Shown here: in pieces, positions 3,009 through 63,648 of the stretch | Numbering within the stretch: the stretch's first letter is position 1 | Layout: each line of letters opens with the position of its first letter | NCBI GenBank assembly: GCA_017417055.1 | Contig: JAFPZX010000187.1 | Span: 1-64,000 of the forward strand | From: Anaerolineaceae bacterium | Lineage (GTDB): Bacteria > Chloroflexota > Anaerolineae > Anaerolineales > Anaerolineaceae | Length of the DNA stretch: 64,000 nt | Direction of reading: 5' to 3' | The notes under the pieces: generated by a model | Database searches by the model: none | Told to the model about the DNA's origin: nothing | Seen by the model: the letters and a program-made list of their open reading frames with translations, nothing else | Made by a program: the position numbers and the translations under genes

Positions 3009-3744
3009 ACTGCTTCCGGTCTGCACCTTTTGCCTGATTCTGCTGATTTGGTGGGGACTTTCCGCATCGGGCCTGATCCCCTCCTACATGCTGCCCTCAC
3101 CGGTAAACGTCGGTGCTGCGTTTATAAAAGATTTTCCAAATCTGATGACGCATGCGCTGGTTTCTGTTCAGGAGGCAATCTACGGACTGATCATCGGTGT
3201 GATTTTAGCTTTCATTATCGCCACGCTGATGGACCGTTATGAGACTTTGGAAAAAGCGCTCCTGCCGCTGATGGTCGTGACGCAGACTATCCCGACTATC
3301 GCCATCGCTCCGCTGCTGGTATTATGGATGGGATTCGGTATGGCGCCGAAGATCACACTGGTTGTAGTGACTACCTTTTTCCCGATCGCAGTCGGATTGC
3401 TGGACGGATACAAAAGTGTGGATCCGGATGAGATCAATCTGCTGCGCTCCATGAAAGCCAACCGGCTGCAGATTTTTTGGCATGTCAAACTGCCAGCCGC
3501 GCTGCCTTATTTTTTCTCGGGGCTGCGGGTCTCGGCATCTTACGCGGTCGTAGGGGCAGTTATTTCCGAATGGCTGGGAGGCTTTGACGGGCTGGGTGTT
3601 TATATGACCCGCGTCCGCAAAGCCTATGCCTTTGACAAGATGTTTGCTGTGATCATCCTGATCATCATCGTCAGTCTTCTCCTTATGGCTGCAGTGGATC
3701 TGCTCAAAACGATCACGATGCCATGGCTGAGGAAGAGGCAATAG
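2977..3744 (+). CDS. thiX: ABC transporter permease for thiamine precursor (ThiX-like)
   Basis: Inner-membrane permease of the ThiXYZ / taurine-nitrate (SsuC/TauC) class, 255 residues with about six membrane helices. The EAA loop that contacts the ATPase is visible around residues 155-185 (EINLLRSMKANRLQIFWHVKLPAALPYF). The start is a TTG inside the previous gene, supported by a weak GGCGAGG upstream and by the frame; no ATG lies nearer. The stop codon is TAG, and those bases already belong to a heptanucleotide repeat array. It works with the binding protein and ATPase that follow, probably importing an HMP-type pyrimidine. Confidence 0.9.
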   Translation: MKRKPENIRNKLLPVCTFCLILLIWWGLSASGLIPSYMLPSPVNVGAAFIKDFPNLMTHALVSVQEAIYGLIIGVILAFIIATLMDRYETLEKALLPLMVVTQTIPTIAIAPLLVLWMGFGMAPKITLVVVTTFFPIAVGLLDGYKSVDPDEINLLRSMKANRLQIFWHVKLPAALPYFFSGLRVSASYAVVGAVISEWLGGFDGLGVYMTRVRKAYAFDKMFAVIILIIIVSLLLMAAVDLLKTITMPWLRKRQ

Positions 3745-3826
3745 ACGTAAGATTTCAGACGTAAGACATAAGACGTATGACGTATGATGGATGATTATTG
3801 ATGTACGTCGTATGACATATGATAGA
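3743..3826 (+). repeat. Heptanucleotide tandem array after thiX
   Basis: About twelve degenerate 7-base units in register: AGACGTA, AGATTTC, AGACGTA, AGACATA, AGACGTA, TGACGTA, TGATGGA and so on. The first unit supplies two bases of the thiX stop codon, and the array runs up to the ribosome-binding site of the next gene. Confidence 0.8.
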
Positions 3827-3841
3827 AAGGTTTTGAAAATC

Positions 3842-4837
3842 ATGAAGAATAAGCTTACCTTATTATTGACAGCTTTATGTTTCATTTTTATTTGCACCTG
3901 CGCGGTTTCCGCACAGGACGGGAAACTTACGCAGATCACGTTCAGCCTTGACTGGACACCAAACACCAATCACACCGGTGTATATGCCGCAAAAGCGCTT
4001 GGATACTATGAAGAAGCGGGGTTGGATGTACAAATCGTTCAGCCATCCGAAAACGGTGCATTGCTGATGTGCGCAGCCGGACAGGCACAATTTGCGGTCG
4101 ACGCACAGGACACAATGGCGGCTTCTCTTGACCTTGATGAACCGCTGGGAGTAACCGCGGTCGCGGCGATCCTGCAGCATAACACTTCCGGGATCATGTC
4201 CCGTGCGGGTGACGGCATCACCTCCGCAAAAGGAATGGAAGGCAAAGTGTATTCCACCTGGGATATTCCTGTGGAACTGGAAATGATCCGCTACTGCATG
4301 GAGCTTGAAGGCGCGGATTTCAGTACCGTAAAATTGATCCCCAACAACATCACCGATGAACCTGCCGCATTGCGTGCCCATCAAACCGATTCAGTCTGGA
4401 TCTTCTACGGTTGGAGCGGAATCAACGCGGAGGTTAACGATTTCGATTTCGATTACTGGGATTTCCGCAGCATCAGCGAGGATCTGGACTACTATACGCC
4501 CGTGATCATCGCCAACAATGAATTCTTACAGAACTCACCCGAGACGGCGAAAGCATTTCTTGCCGCGACAGTCAAGGGATATGAATACGCCATTGAACAC
4601 CCTGAAGAAGCCGCGGAATTCCTGATTGCGGGCGACAATACCGGATCATTGGAAGATGCCCGGGACCTGGTGTATGCCAGTCAAAAATGGCTCTCCGATC
4701 AATATACAGCGGATGCGGCAAGTTGGGGCGTTATTGATCCCGCTCGTTGGGACGCTTTTTATAACTGGCTTTTCTCAAACGGACTGACGGCTCACAACCT
4801 CACAGGGATCGGTTTCACCAATGAATTTTTACCGTAA
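3842..4837 (+). CDS. thiY: NMT1/THI5-like periplasmic binding protein for thiamine precursor (ThiY-like)
   Basis: Extracytoplasmic binding protein of the NMT1/THI5 family (331 residues from the chosen start). Hallmarks: FSLDWTPNTNHTGVYAAKALGYYEEAGLDV near the N-terminus, then a signature-like CAAGQAQFAVDAQDT stretch and an aromatic pocket (WIFYGWSGINAE). The signal peptide MKNKLTLLLTALCFIFICTCAVSAQ ends in an Ala-rich site rather than a lipobox. The ATG at 3842 is preferred because AGAAAGG precedes it and it starts the signal peptide; an upstream in-frame start at 3791 falls within the repeat array. Context points to N-formyl-4-amino-5-aminomethyl-2-methylpyrimidine or HMP as ligand (inference). 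Confidence 0.88.
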   Translation: MKNKLTLLLTALCFIFICTCAVSAQDGKLTQITFSLDWTPNTNHTGVYAAKALGYYEEAGLDVQIVQPSENGALLMCAAGQAQFAVDAQDTMAASLDLDEPLGVTAVAAILQHNTSGIMSRAGDGITSAKGMEGKVYSTWDIPVELEMIRYCMELEGADFSTVKLIPNNITDEPAALRAHQTDSVWIFYGWSGINAEVNDFDFDYWDFRSISEDLDYYTPVIIANNEFLQNSPETAKAFLAATVKGYEYAIEHPEEAAEFLIAGDNTGSLEDARDLVYASQKWLSDQYTADAASWGVIDPARWDAFYNWLFSNGLTAHNLTGIGFTNEFLP

Positions 4838-4849
4838 GGGAAACCTGTT

Positions 4850-5590
4850 TTGGAACTGCTGAGAGCCGAACACATCACGAAATCTTATGATTCCCGGACC
4901 ATCATCCGGGATATCACTATTCATTTGGATGAGGGCGAGCTGGTGTCACTGCTGGGGCTCAGCGGATCCGGAAAAACCACGCTTTTCCAGGCGATATCCG
5001 GACTCGCCCGGCCTGATACAGGGAAGGTTTTTCTGAATGGAAAAGAGATCACCGGCGAACCGGGGCATATCAGCTACATGCTCCAGAAGGATCTGCTTCT
5101 GGAGCATAAAAAGGTGATCGATAATGTCTCGCTGCCGCTGATCATTCGCGGAATTGGGAAAAACGAAGCGCGTAAACGGGCTCAGCCTTATTTCGAACAG
5201 TTCGGTCTCGCAGGGACAGAATTCAACTATCCATCCCAGCTTTCCGGCGGAATGAGGCAGCGGGCAGCGCTGCTCAGAACCTATCTCTGCAATTGCCCCG
5301 CGGCACTGCTTGACGAACCATTTTCCGCTTTGGACATGATCACGAAAGGACAGATGCACACCTGGTATCTGGACATGATGGAAAAAATTCGGCTCTCAAC
5401 GCTCCTGATAACGCATGATATTGAAGAAGCGGTTCTGCTTTCGGACCGAATTTATATCATGACCGGGACGCCGGGTGAAGTCCACAATGAAATTTTTATC
5501 GACCGTCCACGGAAAGAAAGAGCAAGTTTCAATCTTGATCCGGAATTTCTGCGCTATAAACAGCAGATTCTGGATATTTTGGGACAGTGA
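4850..5590 (+). CDS. thiZ: ABC transporter ATPase for thiamine precursor (ThiZ-like)
   Basis: Cytoplasmic ATPase, 246 residues. Walker A GLSGSGKTT (about residue 36), Q-loop YMLQKD, signature LSGGMRQRAALLRT (about 128), Walker B CPAALLDEP (about 150) and switch His in LITHDIEEAVLLSDRI are all intact. TTG start at 4850 behind TAAGGG, 12 bases after the binding-protein stop. It resembles SsuB/TauB-type ATPases. It completes the riboswitch-controlled operon of four genes. Confidence 0.92.
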   Translation: MELLRAEHITKSYDSRTIIRDITIHLDEGELVSLLGLSGSGKTTLFQAISGLARPDTGKVFLNGKEITGEPGHISYMLQKDLLLEHKKVIDNVSLPLIIRGIGKNEARKRAQPYFEQFGLAGTEFNYPSQLSGGMRQRAALLRTYLCNCPAALLDEPFSALDMITKGQMHTWYLDMMEKIRLSTLLITHDIEEAVLLSDRIYIMTGTPGEVHNEIFIDRPRKERASFNLDPEFLRYKQQILDILGQ

Positions 5591-5610
5591 CAACTTAATT
5601 AATTTGGTGA

Positions 5611-5645
5611 GGGGACGGTTTTGCACAAAGCACAAAACTGTCCTC
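5611..5645. repeat. GGGGAC-ended hairpin (REP/MITE-like)
   Basis: GGACGGTTTTG (5613-5623) pairs with CAAAACTGTCC (5633-5643), with outer G-T and G-C pairs. It lies between the convergent thiZ and glycosyltransferase genes. No T-tract follows, so it is not a classical terminator. It belongs to a family seen about a dozen times in the window. Confidence 0.75.
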
Positions 5646-7532: not shown

Positions 7533-10091
7533 TTATCCATTATCGGATAAATCATCATTATCATAATCAGATTCTACCCAGCCTCCGTTGTAATCGGCAT
7601 CACCATCATAATAATTGGAACCAGCCCAGCCGCCCTGGTCATTGTCTTCATTATCATAGTACTGAGAACCAGCCCAGCCGCCCTGGTCATTGTCTTCATT
7701 ATCATAGTACTGAGAACCGGCCCAGCCGCCCTGAAATTCCTCTTCTTTCATAGTGTAATAGGCTGAAGCACTCGCGTCATCGACCACATTATGAGCAACA
7801 ATTGTAATCGTATGTGTTCCGACACTTTGGATAGTCGACGAAACCGAAGTAGACCCCGTAGCATTGCCGCCGGAAATAATGGGATTTCCATCCACATAAA
7901 TATCAACAGACGCTGCATTAGAAGCGGACCAGTAAACAGTTGTGGAATCTCCCATGGTACCTTCATTTGGATTCACATAGAAATAATCGATCGAAGGTCC
8001 CGGAACGCTCTGACCATCTTCATCAGATTCACCGCCACCGGGGTTATCATACATCGTATAATACACACTCTGGACCGTATCAGTAGTGACAGAACGGGCT
8101 GTAATCCTGATTTCATGTGTTCCCGGGCTCTGGATCGTTGAATAAACCGGGGTTGCACCGGTAGACGGCATGTCAACATCAGCTACTCTGTTTCCATCTA
8201 CATCAACATAAACGACTGCCGCATTGGAAACTGACCAGTAAGCTGTTGTGGAATCACCCATATATCCCGAATCAGGATTCACATAGAAATAATTGATGGA
8301 AGGGATCACTTCCCTTTGACCGCTTTCTTCAGTCACAAAGGAGAAATTCGATGAAGCATCATCTGTAACAGAGTGGGCAGTCAGGGTTACTGTATGATTG
8401 CCTACATTCATCAATCCACCGCATACAACCATTGCACCGGTAGCATTGTTACTGCGTTCATATAACGACCCATCAACAATAATATCTACGGTGGCAGTAT
8501 TGGATACAGACCAGTAAACCGTCGGGCAGGCACCCTCATCTCCGGAATTGCTGCTTGGATAGAAATAGTTGATCGTGGGAACGATTCTCTTCTGTCCCTC
8601 TTCAGAATTCGTCGTATTGTAATTGAAAGATGCATAAGCGGTATCGGTTGAGGAGCTGGCCGCTAATTCAACGGTATGGTTTCCTACTGACTGCAGCGGT
8701 CCGCATATCAGCTGGGAACCGTTAGCAGAATAACTTCTTGCGACCGATCTGCCATCTACACGAATATCTACAGCAGCCGTATTGGACGTCTTCCAGTAAA
8801 CAGTTGGACAAACCTGGTATGAGCCGGAATAGAAATCAGGATAAAAAGCGGAAATGGTTGGGAGAGACTGTGAACCGCCGCCATTGACACGAACCTTGCA
8901 CCAGATCGTTTCACCAAAATTCTGACCTTGCGGGGTCCGCATCTGCCAATTGCTGCGATAGGTTCCGTCACTGCCCGGAGCAATGAAATCAACAGCTAAA
9001 TCAACCGTCTGATTAGGCTGTACATTTCCCGGAATGTTGATATTCCGTCCGCTCATCTGATCACCGGAGACGAACACAAAAGTGTAATTCGGGGTCCAGC
9101 TGCAGGTACCGGTATTTTTCACCCGCCAGATTTTGCGGAATTGTTCCCCGCGGGAGACCCGATGACCGTCTGTGATGGTTACGTCACTGACAAAAGTCAT
9201 CCCGTATTTACAGGTCGCGGCAGGATTAACTGTGGGAATCACAACTACCGGTGAAACCGGTGTCGGCGTAGGAACAGAACTGCTGCGATTGATCACCGCG
9301 GATGCTTCATTGAAATTCATGGAAAAGAAACGGTTCGCGATGGTCTGTGCCGTACCGTCTTTGATCATATCGGTCAAATGACCGTTGACTACATCGGTCA
9401 ATGTGGAATTTTTCCGCAGGCCGAATGCGTATTTTTCCATCATAAAGCCATCATAGAAAATTTGATATTTTCCGCTGCTCTGATAAAGATCCTCATAAAC
9501 ATCCTGAGAAAGCACAATCAAATCGACATCTTTCCGGTCCAGTGCGCGAATCTCATCTGAGGCGCTGGAAAAAGTATAAACATTCCGCGGGCTCACATAA
9601 CCGGCTGCGACCAGATTGGTTTTCACCCATTGATCAAAACTCGTCCCTTTTTGGACGCCGATTTTCAAATCACGGAAACTTTCCATCGAAACAGACTGCG
9701 GTTTTGGAAGGGAACTGAGCGCAATGAATTGAGAATCACCGTTATAATAGACCCTTGTAAAATCAACAAGCTGCTCACGTTCTTCATTCTTCGCAAAAGC
9801 ACCGCCGATCATATCGACCTGACCAAGATTCAGCGAATCGATCATCCCGTCGAACGCGAGATTAACCACCTCAACGCGGACATTCATGCGGCGGCCAATT
9901 TCCTGAACCAGGGCGACGTCAATACCGGTTGTGTCACCTGCATTATCAAAAAATACGAAGGGAATATATTCCGGTGGAACGCCCAATTTCAACACACCGG
10001 ATTTTTGCACATCAGAAAGGTCATCAGCATTCGCGGAAACGAAAGATAATGCCATCACAAAAATCAAAAATAACATCAGGTATTTTTTCAT
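7533..10091 (-). CDS. Secreted solute-binding protein fused to NBR1-type and tandem Ig-like domains
   Basis: Large exported protein (852 residues). A signal peptide (to about 23) is followed by an amino-acid-type solute-binding domain (SBP_bac_3, about 30-265; GVPPEYIPFVFFDNAGDTTGID, then DMIGGAFAKNEER). A Pro/Thr linker follows, then an NBR1-type Ig-like domain (about 293-403; WRVKNTGTCSW, the WQMRTPQG strand). Next come four similar Ig-like repeats of 85-95 residues, each starting P(T/S)I.YFYP with TVYWS.SNA...DI.VDG. An acidic Gly/Trp/Tyr-rich tail of 16-residue repeats closes the protein. ATG at 10091 is chosen over an upstream TTG because AGAAAGGATGG is well spaced. No permease or ATPase is adjacent, so it may be a surface-exposed sensor, scavenger or adhesin. 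It is divergent from a shorter paralogue at 10384. Confidence 0.85.
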   Translation of the reverse strand: MKKYLMLFLIFVMALSFVSANADDLSDVQKSGVLKLGVPPEYIPFVFFDNAGDTTGIDVALVQEIGRRMNVRVEVVNLAFDGMIDSLNLGQVDMIGGAFAKNEEREQLVDFTRVYYNGDSQFIALSSLPKPQSVSMESFRDLKIGVQKGTSFDQWVKTNLVAAGYVSPRNVYTFSSASDEIRALDRKDVDLIVLSQDVYEDLYQSSGKYQIFYDGFMMEKYAFGLRKNSTLTDVVNGHLTDMIKDGTAQTIANRFFSMNFNEASAVINRSSSVPTPTPVSPVVVIPTVNPAATCKYGMTFVSDVTITDGHRVSRGEQFRKIWRVKNTGTCSWTPNYTFVFVSGDQMSGRNINIPGNVQPNQTVDLAVDFIAPGSDGTYRSNWQMRTPQGQNFGETIWCKVRVNGGGSQSLPTISAFYPDFYSGSYQVCPTVYWKTSNTAAVDIRVDGRSVARSYSANGSQLICGPLQSVGNHTVELAASSSTDTAYASFNYNTTNSEEGQKRIVPTINYFYPSSNSGDEGACPTVYWSVSNTATVDIIVDGSLYERSNNATGAMVVCGGLMNVGNHTVTLTAHSVTDDASSNFSFVTEESGQREVIPSINYFYVNPDSGYMGDSTTAYWSVSNAAVVYVDVDGNRVADVDMPSTGATPVYSTIQSPGTHEIRITARSVTTDTVQSVYYTMYDNPGGGESDEDGQSVPGPSIDYFYVNPNEGTMGDSTTVYWSASNAASVDIYVDGNPIISGGNATGSTSVSSTIQSVGTHTITIVAHNVVDDASASAYYTMKEEEFQGGWAGSQYYDNEDNDQGGWAGSQYYDNEDNDQGGWAGSNYYDGDADYNGGWVESDYDNDDLSDNG
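7622..7738 (-). repeat. 48-bp tandem repeat encoding the acidic GGWAGSQYYDNEDNDQ tail
   Basis: Near-identical 48-base units at about 7624-7671 and 7672-7719, with degenerate copies on both sides. They encode Gly-Gly-Trp-Ala-Gly-Ser-X-Tyr-Tyr-Asp blocks at the C-terminus of the Ig-like binding protein. The low divergence suggests recent unit gain. Confidence 0.85.
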
Positions 10092-12130: not shown

Positions 12131-12646
12131 ATGAGAATAGAAATACTTCGATATCCTTCTGATGAAGACTGGGCACGATGTCTGCTTCTTGCCCGCATGA
12201 CGCAGGGGAAAGATTCAGGGAAAGTCCCAACCGATGAATGGAAGAAAAAAATACTGGCTGCGGAACACTCCCCTGTTCGGACATTAATGTACACCATCGT
12301 TATGCATGACATTCCTTATTATTGTTCCGTACATATCGTCCGACATAAATACGGCGTTGAACATTTTGTACAATCCCAGCGGGTCAACCCTGAACGCGGC
12401 GCGGAACGTCAGGACGCGCTTGTCACCCACGCCATGGACATGAACTTCCAGGCGCTGGTCAACATGAGCCGCAAACGCCTCTGTTACAAAGCAGACCCAA
12501 CCACCCGCAGCATTATGCTTGAAATCGTAAATGAACTGCGAAAAGTTGACCCGATTTCAGCTTCTTTCTGTGTTTCTGAATGTATATACCGCGGAAACGT
12601 CTGCCATGAGCTGCGTCCCTGCGGCAAGTATGATTGGGGAAAATAG
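12131..12646 (+). CDS. ThyX-like (FAD-dependent thymidylate synthase family) protein
   Basis: A 171-residue cytoplasmic protein that resembles the flavin-dependent thymidylate synthase family, which methylates dUMP with folate and FADH2. The region HIVRHKYGVEHFVQSQRVNPERG matches the position of the ThyX signature RHRxxSxNExSxR in a diverged form. A later DPISASFCVSECIYRG-NVCHELRPCG segment may supply remaining substrate contacts. It is shorter than typical ThyX (about 210-250). AGAGGA precedes the ATG. The next gene is dCTP deaminase, which makes the dUMP supply, so the pair makes metabolic sense. Whether it is a catalytically complete ThyX is not certain. Confidence 0.7.
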   Translation: MRIEILRYPSDEDWARCLLLARMTQGKDSGKVPTDEWKKKILAAEHSPVRTLMYTIVMHDIPYYCSVHIVRHKYGVEHFVQSQRVNPERGAERQDALVTHAMDMNFQALVNMSRKRLCYKADPTTRSIMLEIVNELRKVDPISASFCVSECIYRGNVCHELRPCGKYDWGK

Positions 12647-12693
12647 ATATCAGATTTCAGACTTCAGACTTTAGACTTTAGACCGCAGACGTA
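12645..12693 (+). repeat. Heptanucleotide tandem array after the thyX-like gene
   Basis: Seven units in perfect register: AGATATC, AGATTTC, AGACTTC, AGACTTT, AGACTTT, AGACCGC, AGACGTA. The first AG completes the TAG stop codon at 12644-12646. Confidence 0.9.
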
Positions 12694-12758
12694 TAGAAAA
12701 AGTTTTTAGTAAAAATCTTTTTCTATCAAACAGAAGCAGAAAAGGAAAATACAACACA

Positions 12759-13331
12759 ATGAGTGTATTGTGCGACAAAGAAATTTCAAAATATATCCAG
12801 GCAGGGATGATCGATTTCAACCGCTCGGAAACGGACTGGCATACCGTCGAAAAACAGATCAATCCCAATACGATGGACCTCACGCTCGGCAGGTTTATCC
12901 AATGGCCTAAAGAAAATCAGGTACCTTTAGTTTTCGGACGGAATTATGACACAAAAGAGTATTGGGAATTGCAGGAAGTCAACCCGGATGAGGGTGTTCT
13001 GCTGGCTCCGGGTGATTTATTCCTCGGCTGTTCCCGGGAATATTTCCGCATGCCAAAAGACGTCTGCGGTCAGGTTTTCACCAAATCCAGTCTGGGACGG
13101 GTTTTTATCAATCACATGATGGCCGGTGTTATCGATGCGGGTTTTGAAGGAACGATTACGCTGGAACTGCGCAACGAAGGCAAACATAACGTCGTGATCC
13201 CCTACAGTGCCCGCGTTGTTCAGATACAATTCAGCTACCTGAGTGATTATCCGGATCTCGATTATTCCCAGCGCACCAGCCGCTATATGGGGCAAATCAA
13301 ACCGGAACCGGCAAGGCCGGAAAGGAAGTAA
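12759..13331 (+). CDS. dcd: dCTP deaminase
   Basis: Trimeric cytoplasmic enzyme converting dCTP to dUTP (190 residues). Family motifs are visible: INPNTMDLTLG near residue 37, LLAPGDLFLGCSREYFRMP about 83-101, VFTKSSLGR (substrate-binding) about 108-116, and VIDAGFEGTITLELRN about 127-142, with the catalytic Glu in this stretch. A Gln-containing VVQIQFSYL follows. It could also be a bifunctional deaminase/dUTPase; sequence alone does not settle this. AAAGGAAAA lies before the ATG. It follows the ThyX-like gene, so the two probably form a dTMP-supply unit. The stop codon TAA lies inside a heptamer array. Confidence 0.9.
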   Translation: MSVLCDKEISKYIQAGMIDFNRSETDWHTVEKQINPNTMDLTLGRFIQWPKENQVPLVFGRNYDTKEYWELQEVNPDEGVLLAPGDLFLGCSREYFRMPKDVCGQVFTKSSLGRVFINHMMAGVIDAGFEGTITLELRNEGKHNVVIPYSARVVQIQFSYLSDYPDLDYSQRTSRYMGQIKPEPARPERK

Positions 13332-13380
13332 GAAGTAAGAAGTAAGAAGATAGGTTTCAGGTATCAGGTATCAGATTTAA
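13325..13380 (+). repeat. Heptanucleotide tandem array overlapping the dcd stop codon
   Basis: Eight 7-base units: GAAGTAA three times, GAAGATA, GGTTTCA, GGTATCA twice, GATTTAA. The first unit contains the last codons and the TAA stop of dcd. Confidence 0.85.
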
Positions 13381-23550: not shown

Positions 23551-24732
23551 ATGAACGCGTTGGCGGCTGAACTTATGCAGCAGGATGAACAGCTGCAGCA
23601 GATGCTGAAATACGGCATGTCCGGCGGGAAAGAAAACCGCGGTATTTTGACACAAATCAAAGCCGCAGAGCTGCCTGACGAAGCGATCAACGTGTTCAGC
23701 AACGCTCCTGCCGAATTTGAAGAACGCTCCCGCATGCTGTGGGACGATACCCAAAAACTGTATTATCACGCCTGCAAGGCCAACCGCTTTTCAGAAAATT
23801 ATCTGAAATATTCCGAGGAGCTGGAAAAGAGCATCCGGCAGATGGGCAGTGTTTGCATTACCAAAGCGGCTCTGGAACAAAAGGGGCTGGAATTTCCGAC
23901 CCTTGCGGAACTGGGCGTCGAAGAACTGGTCCGTATGAGTTCCTATCATCTGCGCAAAGCTCACGCGGCGCTGGAGGGAATTTATAAAGACAACAACCTG
24001 CTGGGGATCAGTTATCTGAAACAGGAATTCCGTTGGGACGCACTCATCAGCCGGCTGCTCTCTACCGAATCCAAGATCCAAAAAATCAAAGACGGCAAGC
24101 TGAATGTGGACGACCTGCTGAAACAGGATGAAAATTTCCGCGGTTCTCTGCCTACGAATGAGAACAACAATACCGGTGTAACACAGCGGGTGCGCCTTAA
24201 TCCCTCCGCACTGCCGATCGACGGTGCTATGGCGCGGAAAATGCTTTCTCTTGAGAAGGCAGAGCAAAAGCAGGTGGAAGCTGCTCGCAAAGAAAAACAA
24301 CGTAAAATCAGAGAGCTGGAAAAGCTGGAACGAAAACTGGACCGCACGCCGGGTATGTACAAACCTTCTATGATTGATCTGACCAAAGAACAAAAACGTC
24401 AGATCAACGAAAGCAACGCGGAGTACTTACGCGAAGAAATCGCGGAGATGGAAGCAGCTGAGCCGGAAGTGAAAGCACCGGCTCCGGAACCGAGGGAACT
24501 TGCTCCCGGGGAAATCAGCGAAGCGGAGGCGCGGAAAATCCTGATGGATGACGCGATGAAGCGGGGCGATCAGCAGGCGCTGATGCAGATCCCTCTGGAG
24601 GATTCGGCGGCATTTTATCAGCGCTGGCTGCGATGGAGCGAGGATCTGCGCGAAAGAAACAATTCTCCCCGGTCCGGTCCCTCGAATGAGAAACGGAAAG
24701 CACTGCGTGAGAAGAGGAAGAAGAGAAAGTAG
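23551..24732 (+). CDS. Uncharacterised cassette protein, copy 1
   Basis: I do not recognise this 393-residue cytoplasmic protein. There is no signal peptide or membrane segment. Visible features: a Gln/Glu-rich N-terminus (MNALAAELMQQDEQLQQMLKYG), a helical region through about 190, a conserved NENNNTGVTQRVRLNPSALPIDGAMARKML stretch (about 208-235), a charged coiled-coil-like segment (EAARKEKQRKIRELEKLERKL, about 245-265), a Pro/Glu linker (EVKAPAPEPRELAPGEISEAEARKI), and a basic C-terminus (EKRKALREKRKKRK) ending in a heptamer array. ATG at 23551 is chosen over a GTG at 23545 because AAAGGAGG sits 8 bases before it. The second copy (60013-61206) differs at roughly 35 residues. Both copies keep an intact frame, which suggests selection. 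No transposase or recombinase signature was seen. Confidence 0.8.
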   Translation: MNALAAELMQQDEQLQQMLKYGMSGGKENRGILTQIKAAELPDEAINVFSNAPAEFEERSRMLWDDTQKLYYHACKANRFSENYLKYSEELEKSIRQMGSVCITKAALEQKGLEFPTLAELGVEELVRMSSYHLRKAHAALEGIYKDNNLLGISYLKQEFRWDALISRLLSTESKIQKIKDGKLNVDDLLKQDENFRGSLPTNENNNTGVTQRVRLNPSALPIDGAMARKMLSLEKAEQKQVEAARKEKQRKIRELEKLERKLDRTPGMYKPSMIDLTKEQKRQINESNAEYLREEIAEMEAAEPEVKAPAPEPRELAPGEISEAEARKILMDDAMKRGDQQALMQIPLEDSAAFYQRWLRWSEDLRERNNSPRSGPSNEKRKALREKRKKRK

Positions 24733-24758
24733 GTTTCAGGTTTCAGGTTTTAGGTTTC
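24731..24758 (+). repeat. Four-unit heptanucleotide array at the stop codon of cassette copy 1
   Basis: AGGTTTC, AGGTTTC, AGGTTTT, AGGTTTC in register; the first AG completes the TAG stop. Copy 2 has four units at the identical position but with different sequence. Confidence 0.9.
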
Positions 24759-24763
24759 AGTGA

Positions 24764-24785
24764 GCCGGAATCGGTTGATTTCGGC
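24764..24785. repeat. Conserved 9-bp-stem hairpin of the cassette 3' end (copy 1)
   Basis: GCCGGAATC (24764-24772), loop GGTT, GATTTCGGC (24777-24785). The one change from copy 2 (G for A) leaves a G-T pair, so the stem is kept. Confidence 0.7.
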
Positions 24786-24800
24786 TGTCTTTGATTCGGT

Positions 24801-26823: not shown

Positions 26824-27903
26824 ATGAACGTAGCAATTTCCTGGATCCTCGCAATTTTCGCCCTTATTGGCGGCATCGACTGCCTGATCGGCAATAAATT
26901 AGGGCTCGGCAGCAAATTTGAACGGGCGCTTGCCCTGATGGGACCGATGGCAACCTCCATCACCGGCGTCATCGTGATGGTTCCCATCCTCTCCTGGGCT
27001 CTGAAACACACAATCGTCCCCCTGTTCGCGCTCGTCGGATTTGATCCCGGTGTCTTCGGCGGATTGATACCGATCGACTGGGGCGGCTTTTTTCTTGCCC
27101 GGGATTTGGCGGTCGATCCCCGTCACGGTCTTTTCGGCGGCGTCAACGTTGCCGGGACCTTCGGCACAGCCCTGAGCTTTGCCGTACCGCTGGGAATGCG
27201 CGTGCTGAAAGACAAGGAAAAACAGGACGCCTTCGCACGTGGTATCCTGGAAGGGCTTGTAATTCTCCCCATCAGCCTGGTTCTCGGTGGACTTGTGGCC
27301 GGACTGGGTATTGGGGAAATTCTCTGGCACAGTCTGCCGATCCTGATTCTTTCCGCGCTGGTTTTGTTCGGCATCTGGAAGAACCTGCCGCTGATGGTCC
27401 GCATCTTCACGGTCTTTTCTCAAATTCTGCGCGCAATCGGTATTATTGGGATCACCGTCGGCGCGTTCCAGCAAATGGCCGGCGTCACCCTCATTCCGGG
27501 GATCACACCTATCCTTGACGCGTTCCGCATCATCGCCATGATCACCGTCACGATGCTCGGCTGTCTGCCGCTCTCGGAATTTCTGACGAGGCTGCTGCGC
27601 AAACCGCTGGAAAAACTTGCCGTCAAAGTCCGCACGTCACCGGAAGCACTTTCTGATCCCATCATGACACTGGCGAGCGGAACCGCGGGAATCATTGCTT
27701 TGCAGGATTTCGATCCGCGCGGTATCGAATTGAATGCCGCGTTTGTGGTCTATGCTGTTTCGGCCCTTTCCGCACAGCTTTCATTTATCCTGAACAATGC
27801 GCCGGATTACACCACACCTTACATGGTCACAAAATTTTCCGGTGCCTTTCTTGCGCTGTTCTTTTCTATCTGGATGATGAACCGTCGTGAAAATAAGAAA
27901 TAA
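26824..27903 (+). CDS. Ethanolamine permease-like protein (EutH family)
   Basis: Membrane protein of 359 residues with about ten helices. EutH features: WILAIFALIGGIDCLIGNKLGLGSKFERALALMGPMATSI at the start, VFGGLIPIDWGGFFLARDLA, and HGLFGGVNVAGTFGTALSFAVPLGM. EutH imports ethanolamine across the cytoplasmic membrane at low supply. No other eut gene is visible nearby, so its substrate here is inferred from the family only. The final codons (ENKK, stop TAA) already lie in a heptamer array. Confidence 0.85.
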   Translation: MNVAISWILAIFALIGGIDCLIGNKLGLGSKFERALALMGPMATSITGVIVMVPILSWALKHTIVPLFALVGFDPGVFGGLIPIDWGGFFLARDLAVDPRHGLFGGVNVAGTFGTALSFAVPLGMRVLKDKEKQDAFARGILEGLVILPISLVLGGLVAGLGIGEILWHSLPILILSALVLFGIWKNLPLMVRIFTVFSQILRAIGIIGITVGAFQQMAGVTLIPGITPILDAFRIIAMITVTMLGCLPLSEFLTRLLRKPLEKLAVKVRTSPEALSDPIMTLASGTAGIIALQDFDPRGIELNAAFVVYAVSALSAQLSFILNNAPDYTTPYMVTKFSGAFLALFFSIWMMNRRENKK

Positions 27904-27923
27904 GAGATAAGAAATAAGAAATG
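27889..27923 (+). repeat. Heptanucleotide tandem array overlapping the end of eutH-like gene
   Basis: GAAAATA, AGAAATA, AGAGATA, AGAAATA, AGAAATG. The array starts inside the last codons and includes the TAA stop (27901-27903). Confidence 0.8.
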
Positions 27924-53494: not shown

Positions 53495-55321
53495 TCAGCG
53501 CATGTAATTCGCGCAGGTATCAGCATCCCAGAGGAAGGGGAATACATCACACCACAAACGGTTGTGATCGACATAGAAAATAAAAATACCGATCAAAATC
53601 AATACGCCAAGAATAACACCCAGCGTAATGACTGTCTTCTTCTTTTTCTTCTTTGGTTTCTCCTCATCCTGATTATTCTGAGCACCTGCATATTGCTGAC
53701 CCATTCCGGGCTGCTGTGCATATGGATTATTTCCATAAGGCATTTGCTGACCCATTCCGGGCTGTTGAGCATATGGATCATTGACGTATGGCATCTGCTG
53801 ACCCATCGGCTGTCCATAAGGATTATTGCCATAAGGCATCTGCTGACCCATCGGCTGTCCGTAAGGATTATTTCCATAAGGCATCTGCTGACCCATCGGC
53901 TGTCCGTAAGGATCATTTCCATAAGGCATCTGCTGGCCCATCGGAGGCTGCTGAGAATAAGGATCGGCCCCAAAAGTATTTGTCTGCTGGCCCATCGGAG
54001 GCTGCTGAGAATAAGGATCAGCACCAAAAGTATTCGTCTGCTGGCCCATCGGAGGCTGCTGAGAATAAGGATCGGCCCCAAAAGTATTCGGCTGCTGGCC
54101 CATCGGAGGCTGCTGAGAATAAGAATCAGCACCGAAAGTATTCGTCTGCTGGCCCATCGGAGGCTGCTGAGAATAAGGATCAGAACCGAAAGTATTCGTC
54201 TGCTGGCCCATCGGAGGCTGTTGGGAATAAGGATCAGCACCGAAAGTATTCGTCTGCTGGCCCATCGGAGGCTGTTGGGAATAAGGATCAGCACCGAAAG
54301 TATTCGGCTGCTGGCCCATCGGAGGCTGTTGGGAATAAGGATCAGTACCAAAGGTATTCGGCTGCTGGCCCATCGGAGGCTGTTGGGAATAAGGATCAGA
54401 ACCGAAAGTATTCGTCTGTTGTCCCATCGGAGGCTGTCCATAAGGCATCTGCGGAGCATACGGATTTGCACCATAAGGCATCTGCTGACCCATCGGCTGT
54501 CCGTAAGGATTATTGCCATAAGACATCTGCTGTCCCACCTGCTGAGCATACGGATCATTACCGAAACCCATCGGCTGCTGATACATAGGAGCTGTTTGAG
54601 AAACACTCGGAGCCTGATTGTTAGCGGGATCAGCCGAAACAGGTGCGGCACCATCATTGGAAGCCGGAGCAACCGGTTGTGCCGTGTTATCAGAAGCCGC
54701 AGCGGGCTGCATCGGTATTTGAGCATTCATTCCGGATGGATCATATGGTGTTTGATATCCGTAAGGTAATTGTCCCTGATTCATACCGGGCATACCATAA
54801 GGAGCATTATATGACTGATTAAATCCGAAGTTTTCCGCACCTTGCTGCTGGTCCTGCCCGCTATTGGGAACAGAACTATTTGCCGCGCCGTCGTTAGGAA
54901 GATTATTATTTTCGTTACTCATAGGATTTCCTTGCTTTTTTTCGAAATTGTATGAATCCGGCGCATTTCCAGCCGGCATATCCGTCCCATTCAATTGGTT
55001 CCCGGGATCGTATCCCGCAACCCTTTGAAAAACCAGCATCACATCGCCGCCCAGTCCGATCACATCGTTTTCAGAAAGCTGCACCGGAGCGGAAATCTGA
55101 TAATTGTTAACAACCGTTCCGTTCGTTGAATTGTTATCGACCAGAACAACAGATCCGTTCTGTTGAACATACAAAAAGACATGAATCCTCGAAACGGAAT
55201 TTTCGGTCAAAACAATATCGCAGGAAGCATCCCGTCCGATTTTAGTTTCTTCTTTAACAATCGGAAAGATTTTTCCTGTCAGCGAGCCGGAATAAAAACA
55301 AAGCTGATATTGTGTATTCAT
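53495..55321 (-). CDS. FHA-domain protein with long Gln/Pro/Gly/Tyr repeat region and C-terminal membrane anchor
   Basis: A 608-residue protein. N-terminal FHA domain (about 20-105): TKIGRDASCDIVLTENSVSRIHVFLYV with GR, SxxH-like and STNGTVVNN signature, which binds phosphothreonine. Then a low-complexity region (about 120-560) of 18-residue repeats (FGADPYSQQPPMGQQ-type) and 15-residue repeats (NPYGQPMGQQMPYG). A Lys tract (KPKKKKKK) and one membrane helix (TVITLGVILGVLILIGIFIFYV) follow, ending in a short tail with two Cys (LWCDVFPFLWDADTCANYM). Topology: FHA inside the cell, anchor at the C-terminus. It likely recruits phosphorylated proteins at the membrane, but the target is unknown. Confidence 0.85.
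   Translation of the reverse strand: MNTQYQLCFYSGSLTGKIFPIVKEETKIGRDASCDIVLTENSVSRIHVFLYVQQNGSVVLVDNNSTNGTVVNNYQISAPVQLSENDVIGLGGDVMLVFQRVAGYDPGNQLNGTDMPAGNAPDSYNFEKKQGNPMSNENNNLPNDGAANSSVPNSGQDQQQGAENFGFNQSYNAPYGMPGMNQGQLPYGYQTPYDPSGMNAQIPMQPAAASDNTAQPVAPASNDGAAPVSADPANNQAPSVSQTAPMYQQPMGFGNDPYAQQVGQQMSYGNNPYGQPMGQQMPYGANPYAPQMPYGQPPMGQQTNTFGSDPYSQQPPMGQQPNTFGTDPYSQQPPMGQQPNTFGADPYSQQPPMGQQTNTFGADPYSQQPPMGQQTNTFGSDPYSQQPPMGQQTNTFGADSYSQQPPMGQQPNTFGADPYSQQPPMGQQTNTFGADPYSQQPPMGQQTNTFGADPYSQQPPMGQQMPYGNDPYGQPMGQQMPYGNNPYGQPMGQQMPYGNNPYGQPMGQQMPYVNDPYAQQPGMGQQMPYGNNPYAQQPGMGQQYAGAQNNQDEEKPKKKKKKTVITLGVILGVLILIGIFIFYVDHNRLWCDVFPFLWDADTCANYMR
53700..54480 (-). repeat. Tandem coding repeats of the FHA protein
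   Basis: At about 53936-54430 near-identical 54-base units recur about nine times, each encoding the PPMGQQ...FG.DPYSQQ block. On both sides 45-base units encode the PYGQPMGQQMPYGN block. The high identity points to recent slippage or recombination. Long frames on the other strand and other frames here are artefacts of the repeat. Confidence 0.9.
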
Positions 55322-58046: not shown

Positions 58047-59229
58047 CATTCTCTCCAAACTCAAAGCGCTGGGTGTGACAAAGGGAATGCCGGAACAGCC
58101 GAAAAAACCGTCAAAGTCCGCATCGGAACAGGCACAGATGGACGCGCTGCTCAAAACCTTTTCGAACGGACTGGTTGTTGAAAACGATCACGGTTACGCC
58201 TTTATCAACCGGCTCCGGCAGCCGCTTTCCCAACCGCATGGACAGGTCGATATGGCGCATATTCTTCAATTTTCCCCACTGTTTGATTCCATTATGGAAT
58301 GTCATATTGGGAAAAAGGAAGATACGCTTGCCTTTGATACTGAAACATCAGGGCTTTCCAACGGCAGCGGCAGTTTCATTTTCATGATGGGACTCGGATA
58401 TTTTGAAGAGGACAGTTACGTTGTCGACCAGCTCATTTTACCGGACCTGAGCGCAGAATCAGCGTTTTTGCGCCAGACAGAACTTATCTTTGGACGTTAT
58501 CCGATCCTGCTGAGCTACAATGGGAAAAGCTTTGATATCCCGATGCTTCAGTCCCGCATGCATTTTCATATGTTCCCGGATTTCACCCGGGAGATCACCC
58601 ATATTGACTTACTGAAACTGACCAGACGTTATTGGAAACAGGCGCTGGGTACAGTACCGCTTTCCAACATCGAACACTATCTGCTCAAATTACAGAGGGG
58701 AGATGAGGAAGTCCCCGGATATCTGGCTCCGGAGCTTTATCGGGATTTTCTGCGGGACTGCGATGCCGAGCATATTGCGGGTGTCGCCTATCACAATCAG
58801 ATCGACGTCGTCAGTTTGTCTGCGTTCCTTTTATATATCAATGATATTACGATCCGCGCGGAAAATGATCCGGCGCTGTGGAAAGAGAACAACGTTTCCG
58901 AGACAGCACTAATGCGCCATAATCTTACCTGCTTTTCCGGGAAAGTCATTACAGGACTGGACGGATTTACAGACAAGGAGAAAAAATCGATGGCTTCAAA
59001 ATTTATGAAAAGCGGGGAAACCGAAAAGGCCATTCAGATTTATGAAAACCTGGCTGCCAATGGAGACTACAACGCTGCTGAGAAGCTGATGAAACATTTT
59101 CAGAAATCAAAAGACACAGCCCGATTTGAAGTATACCGCGCTCTGACAATCCGCCTTATCGAACAAGACGAAACCATCGGCAAATGGACGAAGGAAGCAA
59201 AGCTGAGCGAAATAAGAAATAAGAAATAA
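58039..59229 (+). CDS. mrfB: MrfB/YprB-like exonuclease with DnaQ (RNase H-like) domain
   Basis: A 396-residue protein. DEDD exonuclease motifs: LAFDTETSGLSNGSGSFIFMMGLGYF (Exo I, DTET, about 97-103), LLSYNGKSFDIPMLQSR (Exo II), HIDLLKLTRRYW, YHNQIDVVSLSAFL (Exo III). The C-terminal part (about 310-385) looks like TPR-type helices (KSGETEKAIQIYENLAANGDYNAAEKLMKHF). In B. subtilis MrfB is the nuclease of the mitomycin repair pair. The start is placed at 58039, overlapping mrfA by eight bases; the longer upstream frame (57958) is inside mrfA. The last codons and stop run into a heptamer array. Confidence 0.87.
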   Translation: MSDILSKLKALGVTKGMPEQPKKPSKSASEQAQMDALLKTFSNGLVVENDHGYAFINRLRQPLSQPHGQVDMAHILQFSPLFDSIMECHIGKKEDTLAFDTETSGLSNGSGSFIFMMGLGYFEEDSYVVDQLILPDLSAESAFLRQTELIFGRYPILLSYNGKSFDIPMLQSRMHFHMFPDFTREITHIDLLKLTRRYWKQALGTVPLSNIEHYLLKLQRGDEEVPGYLAPELYRDFLRDCDAEHIAGVAYHNQIDVVSLSAFLLYINDITIRAENDPALWKENNVSETALMRHNLTCFSGKVITGLDGFTDKEKKSMASKFMKSGETEKAIQIYENLAANGDYNAAEKLMKHFQKSKDTARFEVYRALTIRLIEQDETIGKWTKEAKLSEIRNKK

Positions 59230-59309
59230 TAAATAAGAAATCGGGAATCGGAAATCAGATATCGGAAATTAGAAATTAGAAATTAGAAATCCGGAATCGG
59301 AAACCGGAA
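59211..59309 (+). repeat. Heptanucleotide tandem array overlapping the end of mrfB
   Basis: About 14 degenerate units (GAAATAA, then GGGAATC, GGAAATC, AGATATC, GGAAATT, AGAAATT three times, CGGAATC, GGAAACC). It begins in the final mrfB codons and contains its TAA stop (59227-59229). Confidence 0.85.
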
Positions 59310-59402
59310 TAAAGATATATTATAATATTCTGAAATTGTCACGATGTACAGTTCTGCTCTGATAGATACTATACAAATATACCCAAAGCAATAACCTGCA
59401 GC

Positions 59403-59450
59403 CTAAAACCTAAAACCTATTTCTTATTTCCGATTTCTTATTTCTGATTT
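59403..59450 (-). repeat. Second heptanucleotide array, opposite orientation
   Basis: CTAAAAC, CTAAAAC, CTATTTC, TTATTTC, CGATTTC, TTATTTC, TGATTTT: complementary in type to the array at 59211-59309, so the two face each other. It ends directly at the 6S RNA terminator. Confidence 0.8.
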
Positions 59451-59451: not shown

Positions 59452-59640
59452 AAAAAAAACACCCCAAAGTGCCGGTATCTGCATTGTTTTTGAACCTGCA
59501 AAACGCAGGATGGTGTTCCCCGCATTAACGCTGCCTTGGCCGAGGCCTATCGCATTGTTAATGAATCGAGAAGAACTCCGATTTCTAAGGTGTTGGCTCA
59601 AAACGCATACTGCAGCTTCACGAACACACCAGGGCTGACC
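59452..59640 (-). ncRNA. ssrS: Probable 6S RNA
   Basis: Minus-strand RNA of about 185-190 bases, the usual 6S size. Closing stem CCCTGGTGTG (minus strand, 59634-59625) pairs with CACTTTGGGG (59471-59462), nine of ten positions including G-T. After the stem comes GTGTTCGTGAAGC...TTTTGAGCCAACACC, as in the 5' half of known 6S RNAs (GTTCG, GAGCC). A large central bubble follows, then a terminal stem with CATTAAC/GTTAATG and GGCCTCGGCC. The 3' side returns with GGGGAACACC. A T8 tract (59459-59452) ends it. 6S binds the vegetative RNA polymerase holoenzyme. Not checked against a covariance model. Confidence 0.72.
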
Positions 59641-59903: not shown

Positions 59904-60000
59904 CGAGAGGACAGTTCCATTCGGCGCAAGCACCTCATGAGAACCGTCCCCGTCCCCAAGCGAACCAAAAACAGCCGAAATCAACCGATTTCGGCTCACT

Positions 60001-60028
60001 ATTCCCTATATCCTAATGCCTATTGCCT
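60001..60028 (-). repeat. Four-unit heptanucleotide array at the stop codon of cassette copy 2
   Basis: Minus strand: AGGCAAT, AGGCATT, AGGATAT, AGGGAAT, then AGTGAGCC as in copy 1. Same unit count, phase and flanks as copy 1, different unit sequence; only the AGG start is shared. The stop TAG (60013-60015) falls at the junction of two units. Confidence 0.9.
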
Positions 60029-61206
60029 TTTTTTCTCTTCTCCCGCAGTGCTTTCCGTTTCTCATTGGAAGGACCGCTCCGGGGAGAATTGTTCTTTTCT
60101 CGAATACTCTCAGTCCACCTTAGCCAGCGTTGATAGAATGTTGCCGCATCCTCCAGCGGGATTTCCAGCAGCGCCTGCTGATCACCCCGCTTCATCGCGT
60201 CTTCCATCAGGATTTTCCGCGCCTCCGCTTCGCTGATCTCTCCCGGAGCAAGTTCTCTTGGTTCCGGAACAGCTGCCTTTGTTTTCTCAACCGGCTCAGC
60301 TGCTTCCATCTCCGCGATCTCATTCCGTAAGTATTCGGCGTTGCTCTCGTTGATCTGACGTTTTTGTTCTCTGGTCAGCTCAATCATCGAAGGCTTGTAC
60401 ATACCCGGCGTGCGGTCCATCTTCCGTTCCAGCTTTTCCAGCTCTCTGATTTTGCGGAGCTTTTCTTTCCGGACTGCTTCCACCTGCTTTTGCACGGCTT
60501 TCTCTTGAGAAAGCATTTTTCGCGCCATAGCACCGTCAATCGGCAGAGCGGAGGGATTAAGGCGCACCCGCTGTGTTACACCGGTATTGTTGTTTTCATT
60601 CGTACGCGGAGAACCGCGGAAATTTTCATCCTGTTTCAGCAGCTCATCGGCATTCAACTTGCCGTCTTTGATTTTTTGGATCTTGACTTCGGTCGCCTGC
60701 AGCCGGCTGATGAGCGCGTCCCAGTGGAATTCCTGCTTCAGATAGCTCATCCCCAGCAGGTTGTTGTCTTTATAGATTCCTTCCAGCGCCGCGTGAGCTT
60801 TGCGCAGATGATAGGAACTCATGCGAACCAGCTCTTCAACACCCAGCTCCGCAAGGCTCGGGAATGTCAGACCTTTTTGTTCTAATGCTGCTTTGGTAAT
60901 GCAGACACTGCCCATCTGCCGGATGCTCTTTTCCAGCTCCTCGGAATATTTCAGATAATTTTCAGAAAAGCGGTTGGCTTTACAGGCATGATAATACAGT
61001 TTTTGTGTATCGTCCCACAACATGCGGGAACGCTCTTCAAATTCGGCAGGAGCGTTACTGAACACGTTTACAGCTTCATCGGGCAGTTCTGCTGCTTTGA
61101 TTTGCGTCAAAATCCCGCGGTTTTCTTTCCCGCCGGACATGCCGTATTTCAGCATCTGCTGCAGCTGTTCATCCTGCTGCATAAGTTCAGCCGTCAACGC
61201 ATTCAT
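60013..61206 (-). CDS. Uncharacterised cassette protein, copy 2
   Basis: A 397-residue protein, about 90 % identical to the protein at 23551-24732 and of equally unknown function. All features described for copy 1 are kept: Gln/Glu-rich start, the NENNNTGVTQRVRLNPSALP stretch, a charged helical middle (KEKLRKIRELEKLERKM) and the conserved MKRGDQQAL.....PLED....YQRWLRW close to the C-terminus. Differences are scattered and mostly conservative, with a two-residue longer Ala/Pro linker (EPVEKTKAAVPEPREL) and a different last few residues (KKGNRH), because the stop lies in a different heptamer array. GAAAGGAG precedes the ATG. Confidence 0.8.
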   Translation of the reverse strand: MNALTAELMQQDEQLQQMLKYGMSGGKENRGILTQIKAAELPDEAVNVFSNAPAEFEERSRMLWDDTQKLYYHACKANRFSENYLKYSEELEKSIRQMGSVCITKAALEQKGLTFPSLAELGVEELVRMSSYHLRKAHAALEGIYKDNNLLGMSYLKQEFHWDALISRLQATEVKIQKIKDGKLNADELLKQDENFRGSPRTNENNNTGVTQRVRLNPSALPIDGAMARKMLSQEKAVQKQVEAVRKEKLRKIRELEKLERKMDRTPGMYKPSMIELTREQKRQINESNAEYLRNEIAEMEAAEPVEKTKAAVPEPRELAPGEISEAEARKILMEDAMKRGDQQALLEIPLEDAATFYQRWLRWTESIREKNNSPRSGPSNEKRKALREKRKKGNRH

Positions 61207-61259
61207 TATCTCTTCTCCTTTCTATTATTTTTTATAATATTTTTTTTCTATTGTTATTG

Positions 61260-61287
61260 ATTATATATAGTATTTTATAAAAGTCAA
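61260..61287 (-). promoter_or_regulatory. Promoter of cassette copy 2
   Basis: Minus strand TTGACT (61287-61282), 16 bases, TATAAT (61265-61260): same boxes and spacing as copy 1. Confidence 0.75.
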
Positions 61288-61290
61288 GGG

Positions 61291-61470
61291 AATTATTTAT
61301 TTAGTTACATTTTTCTAATATATTAGGTCGAAACAAAAAGCGCACGAGGTCTGCCCGATGAAAATTTCAAATTTTCTAATTCTTTATTAATATCCGTATT
61401 TTATGTGTTATAATTCTCAAAACTTGGTTTTAGACGAATTACAACTATCGGTATCAAAGGGGTGAATGCG
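61291..61470. promoter_or_regulatory. Upstream region of the oligopeptide-binding protein gene
   Basis: A+T-rich; includes CACGAGGTCTGCCC at 61343-61356 (also found as the arm of the hairpin at 16760-16820). A TATAAT at 61409-61414 is a possible -10 box for the downstream operon; the -35 is poor. Confidence 0.4.
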
Positions 61471-61548
61471 TTGAACAAAGAAAAGAAATCTCAAATGTGT
61501 GTTTCAGCATTATTTTCTTTTCATGCATTTATTAAATATTGTAAGTAA
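61471..61548 (+). CDS. Possible short leader peptide before the oligopeptide operon
   Basis: A TTG-started 25-codon frame (LNKEKKSQMCVSALFSFHAFIKYCK) with AAAGGGG 7 bases upstream, lying in the untranslated leader of the binding-protein gene. It could be a leader peptide or chance. Confidence 0.25.
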   Translation: MNKEKKSQMCVSALFSFHAFIKYCK

Positions 61549-61609
61549 AAGGGCGATGCAGGCGATTTTTCTGTCTCGTTCTTTTTTATATTTTTTCAGG
61601 AGGAAAAAA

Positions 61610-63520: not shown

Positions 63521-63534
63521 TTTGTAACAATTCT

Positions 63535-63566
63535 GAAAGCAGGAGCAGAGTTTTGCTCCTGCTTTC
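63535..63566 (+). terminator. Stable stem-loop after the binding-protein gene (attenuator or mRNA stabiliser)
   Basis: GAAAGCAGGAGCA (63535-63547) pairs perfectly with TGCTCCTGCTTTC (63554-63566), loop GAGTTT. No T-tract follows, so partial termination or protection of the upstream message is more likely. Confidence 0.6.
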
Positions 63567-63567
63567 A

Positions 63568-63648
63568 CAGTTCGTAGTTGGTAGTTGGTAGTTGGCAGTT
63601 CAACTACCATTCCTATTAAAAACTGACAACTACCAACTATAACTACCC
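63568..63648. repeat. Heptanucleotide array with inverted halves
   Basis: CAGTTCG, TAGTTGG three times, CAGTTCA, then an opposite-strand part (AACTGACAACTACCAACTATAACTACC). The two halves are complementary, so it can form a hairpin between the binding-protein and permease genes. Confidence 0.8.

Follow-up and report, generated by a model that had tools for sequence, protein, structure and literature searches.

Outward-pointing heptanucleotide arrays at gene edges in Anaerolineaceae and a possible origin in the extension of DNA ends

The DNA analysed here, called the window, is a stretch of 64,000 nucleotides (bases 1-64000 of contig JAFPZX010000187.1, our C100) from the genome of a gut Anaerolineaceae bacterium (G000; 4.41 Mb, 200 contigs, 85% complete). 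It carries tandem arrays with a period of 7 bp, most of which lie at the ends of genes (Table 1). A preliminary description of the window had listed nine strict arrays of this kind, seven of them at stop codons. Tandem Repeats Finder (TRF) detected period-7 arrays at eight of the nine places, and our own scan returned eight (score at least 14). The array at 60001-60028 consists of four degenerate units, visible by eye and below the threshold of TRF and of our scan, and the tract listed at 63568-63648 is not one strict array. The assignment to stop codons was correct: seven of the nine arrays supply bases of a stop codon or cross it, while those at 59402-59450 and 63564-63600 lie away from stops. 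Among the other periods from 2 to 24, the window held one array of period 9 and the multiples 14 (four) and 21 (one); a single dinucleotide shuffle gave none at any period.

Table 1. Heptamer arrays and associated features in the window
Feature	Position	Strand	Relation or remark
Heptamer array, AGACGTA type	3743..3826	+	gives AG of TAG stop 3742-3744, thiX-like permease gene 2977-3744
Heptamer array, AGACTTC type	12645..12693	+	gives AG of TAG stop 12644-12646, ThyX-like gene 12131-12646
Two fused arrays, GAAGTAA then AGGTATC	13325..13380	+	span TAA stop 13329-13331, dcd 12759-13331
Cassette gene 1	23551..24732	+	multi-copy family; array at stop
Heptamer array, AGGTTTC	24731..24760	+	gives AG of TAG stop 24730-24732, cassette gene 23551-24732
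Heptamer array, AGAAATA	27889..27923	+	spans TAA stop 27901-27903, eutH 26824-27903
Heptamer array, AGAAATA/AATCGGA	59209..59309	+	spans TAA stop 59227-59229, RNase_H_2 (mrfB-like) gene
Heptamer array, minus-strand AGAAATA/AGGTTTT	59402..59450	-	8 nt from 6S RNA 3' end; converges with 59209-59309
6S RNA, RF00013, 46.8 bits (gathering 46.4)	59458..59638	-	non-coding neighbour of array 59402-59450
Weak degenerate array, AGGCAAT AGGCATT AGGATAT AGGGAAT	60001..60028	-	encodes last codons and TAG stop 60015-60013, cassette gene 60013-61206
Cassette gene 2	60013..61206	-	same family, 91% identical to cassette gene 1
Array AGTTGGT x4-5 (63564-63600), then short irregular opposite-polarity stretch	63564..63648	+	directly after terminator-like hairpin

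The excess of period 7 continues beyond the window. Twenty further stretches of G000 (252.7 kb) contained 15 arrays of period 7 and at most two of any other period, save the multiples 14 (10) and 21 (5), against 0 period-7 arrays after shuffling. Over 636 kb of the genome the scan found 59 such arrays (shuffle 0), with 0 to 2 for the other periods from 3 to 13, save period 12 (9). The eutH protein of the window is 85-95% identical to those of the uncultured Chloroflexi RUG13631, RUG11948 and RUG13159 and of Flexilinea sp. RGIG2505, which were equated, by identical match values, with our genomes G006, G012, G013 and G005; these matches bear out the earlier placing of the host in Chloroflexota. 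Together with G000 (636 kb), these gave a sample of 2.02 Mb (G006 684 kb, G005 204 kb, G012 193 kb, G013 302 kb), on which genes were predicted with a simple caller of our own (516 genes and 86% coding in G000). In the gene-placement scan, 68 arrays were counted in G000, four of them within called genes. The five genomes yielded 166 arrays, dispersed and mainly intergenic, as in the gene-proximal heptameric repeats of other bacteria; seven within genes, two lacking a G/C polarity and five lacking two neighbours were set aside, leaving 152.

Arrays were oriented by their G-rich strand (G over C) and counted as near a gene boundary when within -30 to +40 of it. By this measure, 107 arrays were near exactly one boundary, 17 near both and 28 near none. 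The G-rich strand ran 5' to 3' away from the gene in 101 of the 107 and towards it in six (outward to inward 72:3 at stops and 29:3 at starts; 40:4 for G000 alone); that is, it is the coding strand after a stop and the non-coding strand before a start, as in the known class. After stops, spacers free of arrays lean weakly towards G (271:177); at starts they lean the other way (G over C in 226, C over G in 343), so the outward polarity is not a matter of general composition. Wherever a spacer held arrays of both polarities, the two were strictly convergent (25 of 25), another feature shared with the known class.

The arrays are also anchored by one edge. Their 5' edge falls mostly between -28 and +5 of a stop or between +6 and +31 of a start, and the 3' edge is rarely close to a boundary (96 arrays). 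On the start side they sit just upstream of ribosome-binding sites, with the strand mirrored relative to stop-side arrays. In G000, 40 of 59 arrays were anchored at a stop or start, compared to 10.2 +- 2.7 under uniform placement and 21.9 +- 3.3 under random polarity; the four relatives gave 63 of 93, compared to 20.5 +- 3.5 and 34.1 +- 3.8. In spacers of at least 150 bp the 5' edge hugs the gene in 45 of 79 cases (expected 9.3 +- 2.8). The tie to stop codons proposed in the preliminary description thus holds as an enrichment at gene ends, but starts, hairpins and 6S RNA are bordered too, and what seems to be targeted is the border of any sequence that has to be preserved rather than the stop codon. 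Among 34 arrays whose 5'-side gene is over 40 nt away, eight have a 50-nt 5' flank that folds at -14 kcal/mol or below (terminator-like by eye, with no control); a few other gene-distant arrays come after a promoter-like stretch, and one adjoins the 6S RNA. Anchoring at tRNA genes was rejected, with one array within 40 nt of the 27 tRNAs in the sample.

On contigs C75, C85, C145 and C175 of G000 and C2 of G013, a recurring promoter-like stretch precedes an array at short distance: it resembles GGACAACATTGCCCGTTTTC and continues into a motif like TGTATACT. In some cases it also lies upstream of cassette genes. The array 27889-27923 stops short of a TTATAAT motif that is found also in G005 and G013.

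Phased on AG, 737 units gave a consensus of about AGNNNTN (A1 88%, G2 93%, T6 56%), to which the shapes AGANNTN and AGGNNNN first noted in the window generalise. Position 3 is G in 36% of units, and the G-tracts of at least three required for G-quadruplexes are not a property of the arrays, position 1 being mostly A. They therefore belong to the wide class of heptameric repeats and not to its G-quadruplex subset. The junction T6-N7-A1-G2 yields TAA, TGA or TTAG when N7 is A, G or T, which is why an array that begins in the last codons provides the stop. Stops within -30 to +5 of an array are TAG in 22 cases, TAA in 16 and TGA in 8 (elsewhere 185, 656 and 452), so that TAG is over-used at array-bearing stops (22/46 compared to 185/1293). 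Differences between units, out of seven positions, rise from 1.57 at a separation of one unit to 3.13 at seven. In 44 of 109 arrays the best conserved pair of columns is AG, compared to 130 of 763 for consensus dinucleotides, and the rate of change between adjacent units is lowest at G2 (0.082).

Comparison of orthologous spacers indicates how arrays arise. The thyX and dcd genes overlap in the four relatives (gaps of -16, -4, -1 and -1) and are 112 bp apart in G000, where a clean 113-bp insert (12646-12758) lies between TA and ATG, with the array at its left end. About 65 of the 113 bp are non-array sequence; in the sampled genomes this part had no match longer than 18 nt apart from itself. 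In G006, the thiX-like permease gene ends 4 nt from the next gene, is array-free and encodes a C-terminus 12 residues longer. An array directly follows a TGA/ATG overlap on contig C18 of G006, the same overlap being present in G000 and G013, and a convergent double array on C2 of G013 occupies a 212-nt gap where G006 has 11. Among 71 pairs of filled and empty orthologous spacers (which share spacers and are not independent), the filled one was longer in 52; the gain had a median of 52 bp, for a median array length of 48 bp. As the gain is about the length of an array, arrays mostly add DNA and do not overwrite it; the process of integration or slippage suspected earlier is thus borne out as insertion or expansion. 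Inspection by eye showed no target-site duplication (3 bp or longer) in the clean insertions, which are too few for a rule.

Orthologous spacers carry arrays in both genomes of a pair 20 times, compared to about 6.7 expected (Fisher p 2e-7). At these shared sites the units mostly differ between genomes (12 spacers inspected), in line with the turnover that the preliminary description had proposed looking for in related strains. The spacer at C195 30182, for instance, holds arrays in all five genomes; its stop-side units differ, and one start-side unit type is common to three. The 3' end of dcd carries GAAGTAA in G000, AGATAGG/AGTTAGG and AGTTGTT in G006 and G005, and no array in G012 and G013. 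The eutH unit AGAAATA is common to G000 and G005. Arrays as marks of broken synteny were rejected: 5 of 52 array spacers were broken, compared to 42 of 612 others, no clear difference, in a count confined to spacers flanked on both sides by genes with reciprocal best hits (81 of the 133 array spacers fell outside). A 378-aa gene, HipA-like by eye, is inserted beside convergent heptamer arrays after eutH in G006 (L029 9308-10441) and the corresponding junction lacks it in the other four genomes.

A degenerate four-unit pattern, with overlapping matches counted and the reversed pattern as control, matched G000 208/210, G005 362/353, G006 177/166, G012 43/35 and G013 53/86 times, with the control lower in these five genomes, and gave no match in nine other genomes of the same genus label. 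Of 201 genomes drawn evenly from the Chloroflexota, 57 matched; in several the control counts were as high or higher, which may reflect other units or other repeats.

Heptanucleotide repeats themselves are not new. The short tandemly repeated repetitive (STRR) sequences of filamentous cyanobacteria are tandem 7-mers scattered in intergenic DNA. In Xanthomonas and Nostoc, the heptameric repeats GGGAATC and GGGGA(C/T)T have the same placement at gene ends and overlap stop codons; in Xanthomonas they form convergent pairs, 70 in Xcc and 75 in Xac (PMC4692102, 2015). The unit there is, as here, a heterogeneous intergenic 7-mer, (GGGANTN)n, with T at position 6; it differs in having a G-tract capable of forming a quadruplex, mostly in four copies. 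The repeat regions are described there as more conserved than controls between two species, whereas units at the same site differ in our genomes, and the sections consulted hold no insertion analysis of the present type. Direct repeats of TAACTGA occur in Beggiatoaceae, cyanobacteria and Bacteroidetes (MacGregor 2015, PMC4679880). In BOGUAY, most of them lie on the mirrored strand, shortly before start codons, with forward-orientation repeats ending open reading frames, and a translational binding site has been proposed; their reverse strand rotates to AGTTATC, which fits AGNNNTN (PMC4679880). Arrays of AGTTATC are present in the Chloroflexota genome G103. Because the same geometry was reported in PMC4692102, the kind of element and its geometry are already known. 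The preliminary description knew of no set tied to stop codons in Chloroflexota, and our searches of the open-licence literature for heptanucleotide or heptamer repeats in Chloroflexi/Chloroflexota, or for later work on the Xanthomonas/Nostoc pattern, found nothing relevant; such a set does exist, however, in Xanthomonas and Nostoc. What is new, as far as the literature searches reach, is the Chloroflexota hosts, the degenerate and drifting unit, the evidence of insertion, the unit turnover and the anchoring beyond stops.

The arrays combine periodicity, polarity, anchoring, additive insertion and unit turnover. We tentatively read them as the trace of a mutational process and not as a regulatory element, namely an error-prone, iterative extension of DNA ends that is tolerated in spacers. 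The 3' end exposed at a nick, gap or break within a spacer free of constraint would be lengthened by repeated, error-prone copying of its own last 7 nt or so, the AG step, and G above all, serving as the point of realignment; the extended end would then be rejoined. Extension of both ends would give a convergent pair, and extension of one end a single arm. Where there is no spacer, the insert would fall in the last codons or in a gene overlap; it would be tolerated there because T6-N7-A1-G2 makes a stop triplet when N7 is A, G or T and a period of 7 shifts the frame with each unit, so that another stop is reached before long. Selection would keep inserts out of constrained sequence.

Several observations weigh against this reading. 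Ku, sought as a sign of non-homologous end joining, was found in 0 of 18 genomes, the control in Bacillus subtilis being positive. The reverse transcriptase family RVT_1 was not found in the array-bearing genomes G006 and G013 (97% and 89% complete); subject to this incompleteness, the enzyme that a telomerase-like or reverse-transcriptase product would call for is not seen in every array-bearing genome. Within the genus label, RVT_1 occurs in 3 of 5 array-bearing genomes and in 4 of 9 array-free ones, and reverse transcriptase was rejected as the cause. End extension alone does not account for the closeness of the 5' edge to the gene where spacers reach 150 bp or more. Similarity that decays with distance would also follow from local tandem duplication and mutation, and the 5' half of arrays is only slightly more regular than the 3' half (42 compared to 27 arrays, p 0.04). 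The recurrence at orthologous spacers could come from function or hot spots, or from ancestral arrays whose units have since turned over. The thyX array, whose units contain C, receives the opposite sign when oriented by G and C and was counted against the polarity rule; oriented by AG, it has the expected sign. Finally, small samples from other families are mixed on polarity. G040 and G103 lean outward (a boundary on the 5' side of the G-rich strand in 9/11 and 4/4, on the 3' side in 5/9 and 1/4), and G100 shows no polarity (3/5 on either side); G020 (1/3 and 0/3) and G029 (1/2 and 1/1) have too few arrays, and no array was seen in the samples of G204 (20 kb) and G206 (3.3 kb).

Replication slippage, in which chance heptamer seeds grow by 7-nt slips and selection spares those outside genes and regulatory sites, would account for the dominance of period 7 and for the local similarity of neighbouring units; a hypothesis cited in PMC4692102 holds that 7 bp suits polymerase slippage. 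It does not predict outward polarity on both sides of genes, the 5' edges held at the gene in long spacers, or inserts with as much non-array sequence as that between thyX and dcd, and we regard it as unlikely.

Repetitive extragenic palindromic (REP) sequences and bacterial interspersed mosaic elements (BIME), with REP-associated tyrosine (RAYT) transposases, are likewise dispersed, intergenic and built of convergent halves. The present arrays could be the inverted ends of a small mobile element that relies on a protein acting in trans, such as a Y1 (RAYT-like) transposase or the product of the multi-copy cassette gene. The convergent double array replacing an 11-nt gap in G013 would fit such an element. 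Within the genus label, Y1_Tnp genes occur in all five array-bearing genomes and in 2 of 9 array-free ones, and the cassette family in the same five and in none of the nine; moreover, stop-anchored arrays are far more common at cassette members (9/19) than at other genes (78/1622). The five positive genomes look like one sub-clade, however, so that both correlations are confounded with phylogeny. Y1_Tnp is present in all four other-family genomes tested, including G024, which has no pattern match. The cassette protein was found in none of 15 pattern-positive Chloroflexota outside the clade (single-sequence search with no positive control), nor in G020 and G023; as a general cause the gene was therefore rejected, and, as far as a single-sequence search tells, it seems not to be required for arrays outside the clade. 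Unlike REP and BIME, the arrays are tandem 7-mers with drifting units in which no fixed palindrome was seen; their centres do not appear conserved by eye, and the few clean insertions showed by eye no target-site duplication, as noted above. PMC4692102 reports no general association with mobile elements. A mobile element is an improbable source.

The cassette family itself has 42 matches in G000 and 14-46 in each of the four relatives, and none in the other 20 of the 25 genomes searched. Its proteins have a basic C-terminal tail and gave no family match of meaningful score in Pfam, NCBIfam or PHROGs and none among PDB sequences, plasmids or viral contigs. A structure predicted from three sequences is entirely helical and of low confidence (mean predicted local distance difference test, pLDDT, 63.1; predicted template-modelling score, pTM, 0.39). 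On contig C175 of G000 (23975-24195), heptamer arrays of both polarities lie within a cassette-family gene, an exception to the spacer rule.

A functional role was also considered, in which a C-poor trailer and a G-poor leader keep the edges of the mRNA unstructured, or the inward C-rich strand acts as a putative Rho-loading insulator. The precise, strand-mirrored placement at stops and upstream of ribosome-binding sites, the recurrence at orthologous spacers, and the composition of the inward-reading strand (34% C, 7.5% G, the orientation itself having been picked by G over C) are in its favour, and in Xanthomonas transcripts start or stop at quadruplex-capable arrays more often than at controls (PMC4692102). 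Terminator-like hairpins, as called by our own finder, are neither replaced nor enriched: they accompany 9 of 21 convergent stops with arrays and 86 of 195 without, and 13 of 53 co-directional stops with arrays and 139 of 454 without. Arrays as replacement terminators were rejected on this similarity, the role in setting 3' ends suggested in the preliminary description is not favoured, and we infer that the arrays have no 3'-end function. With stop-anchored arrays at just 87 of 1641 genes, presence and units that vary between close relatives, and 7 of 166 arrays inside genes, a functional element of either kind is distinctly unlikely.

Two related ideas were rejected. One was that arrays serve as multi-frame stop signals. 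Stop triplets are denser in arrays (0.100 after stops, 0.097 before starts) than in the spacer background (0.054). On the antisense strand the density is 0.062 after stops, below that of the sense strand (33 arrays compared to 17), and 0.091 before starts, hardly different (12 compared to 8), and stop arrays show no clear difference from start arrays at position 7 (p 0.07). A hairpin formed by the two arms of a spacer was set aside since pairing within a spacer was just somewhat better than pairing between arms taken from separate spacers. In shuffles that mixed genomes, 18 of 500 gave values as low, and for 7-mers shared between arms 8 of 500 reached the observed value.

It might be asked whether STRR, the Xanthomonas GGGAATC repeats, the Beggiatoa TAACTGA repeats and the present arrays are all products of one widespread, undescribed bacterial activity that extends DNA ends. 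Such an activity would add G-rich 7-nt units, 5' to 3', at either end of a break in a spacer and so heal it in a telomere-like way, and the fused ends would remain as convergent arrays. We consider this very improbable. Heptamer repeats have been noted in unrelated bacteria without a cause, and polarity, clean insertions and unit drift sharply limit what any cause can be. Any genome can serve to test the rule of outward polarity. Should the process be active, it would create new stop codons and C-terminal tails and would part overlapping genes by spacers, and gene ends would be edited and operons uncoupled during evolution.

Other repeats accompany the arrays. Hairpins of the AGCCGAAATC...GATTTCGGCT kind and GGGACAGTCCC-like palindromes lie beside them at about 24760-24800 and 59940-60000 and in further array spacers. 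Elsewhere in the window, 48-base repeats occur at 7618-7733, and long tandem repeats with units of 45 and 54 bases at 53713-54436, inside the gene 53495-55321. A thiamine pyrophosphate (TPP) riboswitch lies at 2517-2616 on the plus strand, upstream of thiamine-type transport genes.

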